Positions 35 to 44,150 of a DNA stretch of 44,150 bases are shown here, in pieces (within the stretch, counting starts at the first letter, position 1; each line of letters opens with the position of its first letter). The stretch lies in assembly GCA_017620255.1 (NCBI GenBank), contig JAFZQU010000013.1, positions 1-44,150 on the forward strand, read 5' to 3'. A program made the position numbers and the translations under genes. The stretch is from Lachnospiraceae bacterium (GTDB taxonomy: Bacteria; Bacillota; Clostridia; Lachnospirales; Lachnospiraceae). The notes under the pieces were generated by a model, which worked only from the letters and a program-made list of their open reading frames with translations, made no database searches and was not told the DNA's origin.

Positions 35-108
35 GGACCTTTAGCTCAGTTGGTTAGAGCAACCGGCTCATAACCGGTCGGTCCTGGGTTCGAGTCCCCG
101 AAGGTCCA
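35..108 (+). tRNA. tRNA with CAU anticodon, probably tRNA-Ile2 (lysidine type), otherwise tRNA-Met
   Basis: The acceptor stem GGACCTT/AAGGTCC (35-41 with 101-107), discriminator A108, D-arm AGCTCAGTTGGTTAGAGC and T-arm GGTTCGAGTCC are all present. The anticodon stem ACCGG/CCGGT encloses loop CTCATAA with CAT at 69-71. CCA is not encoded. A CAU anticodon can read Met, or read AUA when TilS converts C34 to lysidine. The acceptor has C4-G69 and C5-G68, the pairs known to favour TilS recognition in tRNA-Ile2, so Ile2 is preferred. The tRNA call is firm; the Ile/Met choice is inference. Confidence 0.93.
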
Positions 109-164
109 CTATATGAGAACGGGCGAACCCTAGGATTTTAAGATCAGGGATTATCCGGAAGATA

Positions 165-11549: not shown

Positions 11550-12500
11550 ATGGGAAACCCTGATGCAAAAATCACGCAAAAAGATGGCGAAAAGATCACA
11601 TATAAGGACCGGAATATTTCGTTCGTGATGGAGAACGAACCGGTCTATGTCGGCAATATCGTCTTTGAATGTTTTCACAGATCCATTCCGATGCATGCCC
11701 ACTCGGACAACAGTTATGAGATCCATTACATTTCCGGCGGCCACGGACAGGTGACGGTGGAGGGCAGGGAGTATGAGGTGGTGCCAAATACACTGTATAT
11801 CACGGGGCCGCACATACAGCATTCCATGATCCCCGATGCGTCCGATCCGCTCTCGGAATACTGTGTGTATTTAAAACTGACAGACAGGCGCAAATATGCG
11901 GGGAAACCGTCCTCGCTGATGCAGCGTTTTCGTGATACGGTCGTGTGGTACGGAAACGACAGGCACAGGATCCATGCGCTGATGCGTATGCTGTTTGAAG
12001 AACTGGAAGGGAAGAATCTGGGCTACAGAACACAGGTGGAATCTCTGTTGAAACAGCTGATCATTGCCTGTGTCAGGAACTATTCCGTTGAAACGACAGA
12101 CCGGGATCCAAAAGGGCAGCAGTCGATGGACTATCAGTATCTGACCATCGAGGAAGCGTTCCTGTATGAATACGGAACGCTGACACTGACGGATCTTGCA
12201 GGCCGTCTGAACCTGAGCACAAGGCAGACACAGAGACTGCTTTTGGATCATTACGGCATGAACTTCCAAAGGAAAAAGACAGAGGCCAGAATGTCCGCAG
12301 CTGCGCTGATGCTGCGCTCGCCCGGGATAGGGATCACACAGATCGCTGACGCCGTCGGCTATTCTTCCGTCGAGCATTTTTCATCGGCATTTCGCCGTTA
12401 TTACGGAGAGAGCGCCAGCCGGTACCGTTTAAAGATGCAGGAACGGATCCGGAAACAGGATGCAGGACAAATAGCGGAAGCAGATGAGAAAGATACTTGA
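11550..12500 (+). CDS. AraC family transcriptional regulator of the dehydrogenase/reductase/fucU operon
   Basis: The protein has 316 residues from the ATG at 11550. The N-terminal cupin (about 25-120, with IPMHAHSDNSYEIHYISGGHG and ITGPHIQHSMIPD) is followed by two helix-turn-helices near the C-terminus (LTLTDLAGRLNLSTRQTQRLLLDHYG and ITQIADAVGYSSVEHFSSAFRRYYG). The start is uncertain: no clear SD is visible, TATGAT at 11538-11543 with an extended TG looks like a -10, which would make the 11550 transcript nearly leaderless, and a TTG at 11532 is also in frame. Its divergent position points to control of the leftward operon. The C-terminus runs into the promoter of the tRNA-Asp cluster. Confidence 0.9.
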   Translation: MGNPDAKITQKDGEKITYKDRNISFVMENEPVYVGNIVFECFHRSIPMHAHSDNSYEIHYISGGHGQVTVEGREYEVVPNTLYITGPHIQHSMIPDASDPLSEYCVYLKLTDRRKYAGKPSSLMQRFRDTVVWYGNDRHRIHALMRMLFEELEGKNLGYRTQVESLLKQLIIACVRNYSVETTDRDPKGQQSMDYQYLTIEEAFLYEYGTLTLTDLAGRLNLSTRQTQRLLLDHYGMNFQRKKTEARMSAAALMLRSPGIGITQIADAVGYSSVEHFSSAFRRYYGESASRYRLKMQERIRKQDAGQIAEADEKDT

Positions 12501-12525: not shown

Positions 12526-12546
12526 AATAAATGATTTTGCACGTTT

Positions 12547-12620
12547 GGCCCAGTGGCTCAGTTGGTTAGAGCGCCGCCCTGTCACGGCGGAGGTCACGGG
12601 TTCGAGTCCCGTCTGGGTCG
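12547..12620 (+). tRNA. tRNA-Asp (GTC)
   Basis: The acceptor GGCCCAG/CTGGGTC (one G-T pair), discriminator G12620, D-arm GCTCAGTTGGTTAGAGC, anticodon loop CTGTCAC with GTC at 12581-12583 and T-arm ACGGGTTCGAGTCCCGT form a complete cloverleaf. The G73 discriminator is an Asp identity base. CCA is not encoded. Confidence 0.96.
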
Positions 12621-12626
12621 TATGTG

Positions 12627-12733
12627 CCATATCCGCTAAAGCGGATGTGGCGCCAAGAAATTGCGAAGCAATTTCAGAATTTGCGAATCATCTGCAGTGC
12701 AGATGTGAGCAAAGTAACTGCGGAGCAGTTACT
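12627..12733. repeat. array of four short perfect hairpins between tRNA-Asp and tRNA-Val
   Basis: Four independent stem-loops follow each other: 12627-12650 (10-bp stem, TAAA loop, one T-G pair), 12657-12675 (GAAATTGC/GCAATTTC, GAA loop), 12689-12705 (CATCTGC/GCAGATG, AGT loop) and 12713-12733 (AGTAACTGC/GCAGTTACT, GGA loop). Stems differ in sequence but share the design of 7-10 bp closed by three or four bases. GCGAAGC and GCGGAGC are GNA triloops, a class known for unusual stability in single-stranded DNA. No T-runs follow, so they are not terminators. They could guide tRNA processing or be remnants of a repeat family. Confidence 0.8.
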
Positions 12734-12748
12734 AATTAAGAAACATAA

Positions 12749-12821
12749 GGGCTCTTAGCTCAGCTGGGAGAGCATCTGCCTTACAAGCAGAGGGTCATAG
12801 GTTCGAGCCCTATAGGGCCCA
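12749..12821 (+). tRNA. tRNA-Val (TAC)
   Basis: Acceptor GGGCTCT/AGGGCCC (one T-G pair), D-arm AGCTCAGCTGGGAGAGC, anticodon stem TCTGC/GCAGA with loop CTTACAA (TAC at 12782-12784), T-arm ATAGGTTCGAGCCCTAT and discriminator A12821 are all seen. Confidence 0.96.
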
Positions 12822-12829
12822 CTAATTAT

Positions 12830-12873
12830 GAAATCGCTTTGCGATTTCCAGGCACAGCATCCTATGGATGCTG
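12830..12873. repeat. two further short hairpins between tRNA-Val and tRNA-Leu
   Basis: GAAATCGC/GCGATTTC with loop TTT (12830-12848) and CAGCATCC/GGATGCTG with loop TAT (12855-12873) are perfect 8-bp stems with three-base loops. They continue the same design as the array before tRNA-Val. Confidence 0.78.
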
Positions 12874-12880
12874 CACAAAT

Positions 12881-12966
12881 GCCGCAGTGGCGGAACTGGC
12901 AGACGCACAGGACTTAAAATCCTGCGAGGGTTAAACTTCGTACCGGTTCGATTCCGGTCTGCGGCA
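12881..12966 (+). tRNA. tRNA-Leu (TAA)
   Basis: This 86-base class II tRNA has acceptor GCCGCAG/CTGCGGC, anticodon stem CAGGA/TCCTG with loop CTTAAAA (TAA at 12915-12917), a long variable arm, T-arm CCGGTTCGATTCCGG and discriminator A12966. Confidence 0.96.
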
Positions 12967-13033
12967 CTTCTAAAGCCTTGATTTTACTGTAGGTTGTGTA
13001 AAGTCCGGGCTTTTTCATTTGCAGGTAAAAGAC

Positions 13034-32243: not shown

Positions 32244-32247
32244 CGCA

Positions 32248-32405
32248 GCAAATGCATCAGGCATTTGCGGAGCGAATCCGGCAACTTCCGCAGGAAGTTG
32301 TCCTGCGAAGCAGGATTGTGCAGCAGACCACAAGTCTGCGCACAACCCAACAAGAAGGAGATAATGACTTCCGCAGGAAGTTGTCCTGCGAAGCAGGATT
32401 GTGCA
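32248..32405. repeat. hairpin-rich duplicated leader before the GH3 gene
   Basis: Hairpins occur at 32248-32268 (GCAAATGC stem), 32282-32300 (CAACTTCC/GGAAGTTG, GCA loop), 32301-32315 (TCCTGC/GCAGGA, GAA loop) and 32316-32345 (TTGTGC plus GCAGAC stem with one bulged A). A 39-base segment at 32284-32322 is repeated without change at 32367-32405. Each copy is then followed by nearly the same 25 bases, CAACCCAACAAGAAGG and onward through the SD and ATG, except that the first copy carries an extra hairpin of about 20 bases. The loops resemble those in the tRNA hairpin array. Confidence 0.8.
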
Positions 32406-44074: not shown

Positions 44075-44149
44075 CGGGGTGTGGCTCAGTTTGGCTAGAG
44101 CGCCTGGTTTGGGACCAGGAGGTCGCAGGTTCGAATCCTGTCACCCCGA
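44075..44149 (+). tRNA. tRNA-Pro (TGG)
   Basis: Acceptor CGGGGTG/CACCCCG, D-arm GGCTCAGTTTGGCTAGAGC, anticodon stem CCTGG/CCAGG with loop TTTGGGA (TGG at 44110-44112), T-arm GCAGGTTCGAATCCTGT and discriminator A44149 are complete one base before the window ends. Confidence 0.96.
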
Positions 44150-44150
44150 C

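Follow-up and report, generated by a model that had tools for sequence, protein, structure and literature searches.

Judged from the sequence, the six hairpins threaded between three neighboring tRNA genes of a Lachnospiraceae bacterium are three copies of one two-hairpin DNA repeat in two orientations, not six independent hairpins. They lie in a contig stretch of 44,150 nucleotides, the whole of which we refer to as the window. We name the repeat module A, and we consider it about an even bet (probability near 0.5) that the array consists of three copies of a dispersed, non-autonomous structured repeat, a variant of REP- and MITE-like elements, whose arms probably stay complementary through DNA copying templated by the hairpins, together with selection.

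All six stem-loops reported in an earlier note on this DNA are present (Table 1), including five perfect triloops with the loop sequences given there. Its stem length of 7 to 10 bp holds for these five, which measure 7 to 9 bp, but not for the first hairpin, which is longer and not fully Watson-Crick paired. The two spacers (185 bases) thus contain five perfect stems of at least 7 bp. Among 5,000 dinucleotide shuffles of the same spacers, 4707 contained no such stem, 286 contained one and 7 contained two, the maximum, so that the comparison with shuffled spacers proposed in the note came out in favor of the hairpins. RNA folding of positions 12622-12880, a stretch that includes tRNA-Val, gave a z of -9.4, and 0 of 200 shuffles scored as low. 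In a 409-kb sample of the same genome, comprising the window and 20 further stretches with coding DNA assigned by simple ORF calls, hairpins numbered 15 in 700 nt of tRNA spacer (21.4/kb), 36 in 25.6 kb of intergenic DNA elsewhere (1.4/kb), where many resemble terminators by eye, and 96 in 382 kb of DNA called coding (0.25/kb). Termination had been discounted in the note, and rightly so: no stem of the array is followed by the T-run of an intrinsic terminator, and the single terminator-like site found lies upstream of the hairpins, at 12345. A promoter-like site at 12497 was no better than chance. At gathering score, Rfam returned tRNA matches alone in the window, and the spacers had no match at E <= 1; identity of module A with an Rfam family was therefore set aside.

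Table 1. Genes, repeat copies and hairpins of the Asp-Val-Leu tRNA region (window 12,546-12,967)
Feature	Position	Strand	Description	Basis
tRNA-Asp (gtc)	12546..12621	+	A1 head abuts, distance 0 nt	ARAGORN, Rfam
tRNA-Val (tac)	12749..12822	+		ARAGORN, Rfam
tRNA-Leu (taa)	12881..12967	+	5' end faced by A3 head, distance 2 nt	ARAGORN, Rfam
A1, module A copy 1	12622..12679	+	head, H1 12624-12653, linker, H2 12657-12675, tail	R1 75.5 bits; used to build R1; folds
A2, module A copy 2	12681..12736	+	diverged, tandem to A1; hairpins 12689-12705 and 12713-12733	R1 32.4 bits, E 4.9e-4 (genome); not used to build R1; folds
A3, module A copy 3	12826..12878	-	inverted; H2 12830-12848, short-form H1 12855-12873	R1 67.2 bits; used to build R1
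First hairpin (H1 of A1)	12624-12653		13-bp stem, two G-T pairs, TAAA loop	sequence, RNA folds
Perfect triloop stem	12657-12675		GAA loop	
Perfect triloop stem	12689-12705		AGT loop	
Perfect triloop stem	12713-12733		GGA loop	
Perfect triloop stem	12830-12848		TTT loop	
Perfect triloop stem	12855-12873		TAT loop	

The two-hairpin unit with fixed linkers emerged from comparison with the spacers of relatives. Module A is about 57 nt long and runs from a head (TTGTGCC) through a first hairpin of 11-13 bp (H1), a linker near GGYGCC and a second hairpin, H2, typically GTAAnnGC-GNA-GCnnTTAC, to a tail (AGAA). The stems do differ in sequence, as the note had stated, but its picture of separate hairpins did not hold, since they are paired with conserved linkers as copies of one unit. 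The covariance model used for searches, R1, was built from nine copies in a MAFFT alignment, with rows and structure chosen by eye, and favors well-paired copies. The Val-Leu spacer consists of A3 with 3-4 nt on either side and nothing else, and A3 recurs at 96% identity on contig C2, between tRNA-Glu and tRNA-Cys. Between A3 and the nearly identical copy at L003 113-165, each loop shows a C-to-T difference when read on the tRNA strand (TTC/TTT, TAC/TAT), which may be a trace of deamination in an exposed loop, though only two events are involved. In a DNA search of the same genome, the first two hairpins turned up again at 87% identity close to the ends of contigs C33 and C46. The emphasis of the note on GNA loops suits the family, in which most loops are of this type, better than the array, where they account for only two of the five triloops. 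GNA or its complement formed 39 of 52 triloops in the tRNA spacers of 27 genus genomes and 11 of 47 triloops outside tRNA genes and spacers in the own-genome sample.

Module A is a repeat family, found mainly in tRNA and rRNA spacers in the genus and right after stop codons in some relatives. In its own genome, R1 located it at eight places, all beside tRNA or rRNA genes: three in the window, one each at tRNA-Glu/Cys and tRNA-Val/Met, one that has lost H1 and stands 4 nt off the 23S 3' end, and one at the end of each of C33 and C46. At neither of these two contig ends was rRNA detected; their designation as 16S leaders rests on alignment to the leader of genome G032, where 16S follows. Within the genus, R1 matched 8 of 37 genomes at E <= 0.01, the own genome included, with 13 copies in G015 and 9 in G032; G007 has two weak matches that do not resemble the other copies. 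In G213, which belongs to another genus, 15 matches were found, partly in tandem and partly right after stop codons, and its single available congener (84% complete) has none. Under a stricter filter, matches were found in 5 of 299 genomes sampled from the family, 3 of them outside the genus, and in 3 of 392 sampled from the order, 1 of them outside the genus. All copy numbers are lower bounds, as many assemblies are incomplete and a number of contigs break off at tRNA or rRNA genes. Both ends of the contig studied here fall within or next to tRNA genes (window 35-109 and 44075-44150), as if assembly had broken at repeated tRNA regions.

A pattern scan of named genomes yielded 13 stretches, 11 of them from Lachnospiraceae (the rumen assemblies RGIG6995 and RGIG10225, RUG12462, AD3010, AC2012 and one metagenome bin). 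Stretches from Saccharibacteria and Aegiribacteria were judged to be chance matches, if not with full certainty; neither has H1 or the linker, and the stem is imperfect in the first and perfect in the second. In AD3010, module A stands in tandem after 23S and after tRNA-Asn. Together with the tandem copies of G213 and the tandem and inverted copies in the window, this bears out the suggestion of the note that a small repeat family grows by copying hairpins. Module A also occurs in mRNA operons: G032 has a copy between nusG and rplK, 1 of 29 spacers compared by eye, and G032 and G015 share one at the same place before thyA, where the own genome has no module A and G012 has different hairpins. 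Neither locus yielded a clean empty site or a duplicated target; nusG-rplK and thyA spacers without module A exist but differ beyond the insert. A plasmid search matched 386 records; among the matches listed (best 20 of 386), none covers 80% of the query, and they look like tRNA matches.

Relatives gave a divided answer to the check, proposed in the note, for tRNA clusters that lack both hairpins and covariation. In 27 of the 37 genus genomes, namely those whose fetched loci hold tRNA spacers of 12-400 nt free of N, the sampled spacers contained no such hairpin in 9 genomes and one in 7, but covariation is strong where module A occurs. Two-sided changes affect 17 of 21 base pairs among 58 distinct matches; cells with two-sided change number 210 against 52 +/- 8 in shuffles, and 96.6% of cells are paired, compared to 26-49% with the arms slid against each other. 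This alignment was fitted to R1, and its counts lean towards structure. The nine-sequence MAFFT alignment gave 10 of 21 pairs changed on both sides, 25 cells against 8 +/- 2.4 and 96.2% pairing, the number of further pair types not exceeding that in shuffles. Both alignments agree with the observation in the note that shape is conserved under changing sequence.

Paired changes in an alignment usually count as a strong sign of functional RNA. Here the signal arises in a repeat that occurs in both orientations and shows little wobble in its upper stems, and it may instead stem from copying of DNA hairpins. If true, module A would be a naturally occurring case in which selection on RNA structure could be distinguished from a mutational process, and in which the entry of repeats into tRNA and rRNA operons could be studied. 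In H2 and the six loop-proximal pairs of H1, 616 of 630 cells from 45 copies are Watson-Crick, 2 are GU, 3 are AC and 9 are other; for the stem tallies, 9 of the 58 distinct copies were dropped as shorter than 50 nt, and for the 45-copy count 4 more off-family matches. GU makes up 6.2% (173/2784) of pairs in the tRNA stems of the fetched loci, a control in which AC cannot appear as ARAGORN brackets hold standard pairs only. A second control of 24 terminator-like stems, allowed at most one non-standard pair each, gave 8 GU, 2 AC and 272 Watson-Crick pairs. C-G closes H2 in 54 of 54 cases. Between copies that differ at a single stem pair, the difference is two-sided 99 times out of 110 in H2 and 121 times out of 127 in H1, compared to 54 out of 69 in tRNA. 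This excess does not by itself prove DNA copying, as tRNAs share the tendency.

H1 as a whole has 79 GU and 18 AC cells, and G-T pairs are frequent at its base. The sequences on either side of H1 are GTGCC-like and form a short direct repeat able to pair with itself, which accounts for the G-T pairs of the lower stem; however, such pairs are also as expected from selection on a folded strand, and they count against the DNA-copying reading. Beside 23S, one copy lacks exactly H1, a loss that looks like slippage. In two rrn leaders of G032, the 40 nt before and the 35 nt after a changed part of H1 are identical, and 11 positions differ inside; of the seven changed H1 pairs, read by hand, four carry changes in both arms and three in one arm only, to or from G-T. 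The one-arm changes count against the DNA-copying reading; the mixture as a whole is compatible with copying plus ordinary mutation, and may also reflect selection.

Relative to the nearest stable-RNA gene, 25 rows have the same orientation and 22 the opposite one, and for 20 no such gene was found nearby (three duplicate loci dropped, weak overlapping rows kept). Before 16S, module A is forward in seven genus genomes and reversed in G136, which belongs to another genus. Its head lies 0-3 nt from a tRNA in 14 of 21 copies that have one on the head side, nine times at 5' ends and five times at 3' ends, whereas the tail is equally close in 3 of 27; the count covers copies with a tRNA within 300 nt, after removal of duplicates and of seven weak or overlapping rows. 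Without two 58-nt spacers, in which both ends must abut, 12 heads stand against 1 tail (binomial P 0.0017, the related copies not being independent). In five of the seven exceptions, another copy in the same spacer is nearer to the gene. The polarity of module A seems to be set by gene boundaries, not by transcription.

This placement of the head counts against the DNA-copying repeat, which gives no account of it, and speaks for the main rival explanation, in which the hairpins are RNA bookends: formed in the transcript, they would fence off a tRNA, rRNA or ORF from exonucleases, Rho or misfolding with neighbors, so that stability alone matters and sequence and orientation are free. We regard bookends as a serious but tentative possibility. 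Heads close to both 5' and 3' ends of tRNAs, copies directly after stop codons, hairpin-dense tRNA spacers and stable RNA folds all agree with it. The hairpin-free spacers of a third of the surveyed genomes and the scarce wobble of the upper stems do not, and reversed copies retain the mispairing of the H1 base in the transcript. According to folds, the transcript strand of A3 loses three pairs at the H1 base that its own strand forms; that the sequence of A3 is kept all the same counts for the repeat reading.

We favor a DNA-copying repeat on account of its two orientations, the H1-base pairs lost in A3, the scarce wobble of the upper stems and the slippage-like loss of H1. tRNA and rRNA operons are generally heavily transcribed. 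One DNA strand would fold into stable hairpins in such probably heavily transcribed stretches, and replication or repair would copy one arm from the other by quasipalindrome template switching, whereby stems would become perfect and drift as matched pairs. Slippage between the short repeats on both sides of H1 might remove hairpins, and module A may have spread by recombination between spacers or through a putative transposase acting in trans. The hairpins in transcripts are probably neutral to mildly useful spacers. Template switching is reported to render imperfect inverted repeats more perfect in Escherichia coli (PMC7202029) and was observed in yeast under high transcription only (PMC3820800). 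A more far-reaching reading is a polarized hairpin element that docks its H1 end on gene boundaries, forward after tRNA 3' ends and stop codons and mirror-reversed before tRNA 5' ends and, in one genome, 16S, its fold being kept across genera by arm-to-arm DNA copying in highly transcribed operons, with structure but not sequence inherited; we consider this fuller picture doubtful.

Plain duplication of spacers, in which module A spread only by recombination between tRNA and rRNA clusters without mobility or function of its own, is unlikely. It fits the confinement of all eight own-genome places to the neighborhood of tRNA and rRNA genes and the near identity of the Val-Leu and Glu-Cys spacers, but not the copies in nusG-rplK and before thyA or the dispersed copies of G213. 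A dedicated guide for tRNA processing, one of the roles proposed in the note, was also judged unlikely, as module A stands in leaders of rRNA, next to 23S and within mRNA operons as well, and does so in either orientation. That the hairpins arose by chance in short spacers has a negligible probability: stems of at least 7 bp are not rare window-wide (22 against 4-18 in ten shuffles), but the spacer shuffles, folding z, spacer density, related copies and paired changes refute this idea.

Among known systems, REP sequences, including the GTAG- and CGTC-tagged palindromic repeats, come closest in form: PMC3733652 describes short intergenic hairpins with alternative complementary stem residues that occur singly, paired or grouped. 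Module A shares these features and can be classed with small extragenic palindromes. However, no GTAG or CGTC tag was seen by eye at its palindrome ends, H2 mostly starting with GTAA or ATAA and heads being TTGTGCC- or ATGCGAC-like; its upper stems have scarce GT pairs, which the same text calls frequent in REPs; and, unlike REPs, it is concentrated beside stable-RNA genes in the genus. REPs usually exceed 100 copies per genome according to PMC2817692, compared to 8-15 for module A, lower bounds from fragmented assemblies. The REP-associated Y1 transposase domain PF01797 had no match in the own genome; it matched in 4 of 9 other carriers, but neither in G213 (15 copies, 100% complete) nor in G015 (79% complete). 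On the tag, transposase and copy-number findings, REP/RAYT identity was set aside.

IS200/IS605-type and MITE-like elements are likewise short, non-coding and dispersed, with hairpins towards their ends. The terminal inverted repeats of MITEs were not seen in module A, whose head TTGTGCC and tail AGAA are non-complementary by eye. Quasipalindrome hotspots of template switching (PMC7202029, PMC3820800) also gain arm complementarity in one event, with a link to high transcription in yeast; in those papers they are single sites or reporters, whereas module A is a dispersed family for which the process is inferred. The palindromic candidate structured RNAs of human microbiomes resemble module A in forming structures on both strands, some without terminators, but the passages of PMC8040213 consulted name none beside Lachnospiraceae tRNA clusters, and the word Lachnospiraceae occurs 0 times in its main text. 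Among the open-licence papers listed, none was recognized as describing the module A repeat, which we class with the small dispersed structured repeats as a further variant.

Several further structures were seen near or apart from module A. In G032, one copy (L091 1412-1494) lies a few nucleotides from a GA-cis RNA (Rfam RF02987). In G213, module A is nested in another repeated framework (TAGCGAGGAAGGAAA..CCGAGCGTACAA; L118, L121 and L123), which suggests insertion of one repeat into another. Within the window, two adjacent C(GNA)G hairpins (32282-32300, GCA; 32301-32315, GAA) directly follow the stop codon of an ABC-permease-like ORF; a unit of about 83 nt within 32246-32398, made up of both hairpins and a AAGGAGATAATG sequence, is repeated at 32367-32398. 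These hairpins had no R1 match and form the sole other cluster of triloop hairpins outside tRNA spacers in the 409-kb own-genome sample. Finally, a second unit, module B (L002 1372-1500, L019, L087 and L090), begins a few nucleotides after the 3' ends of tRNAs or 23S. An outer stem resembling GTCATAAGG/CCTTATGAC encloses a hairpin and is followed by ACGGCG and a hairpin ACATC..GATGT; the orientation of module B follows transcription in the copies seen.
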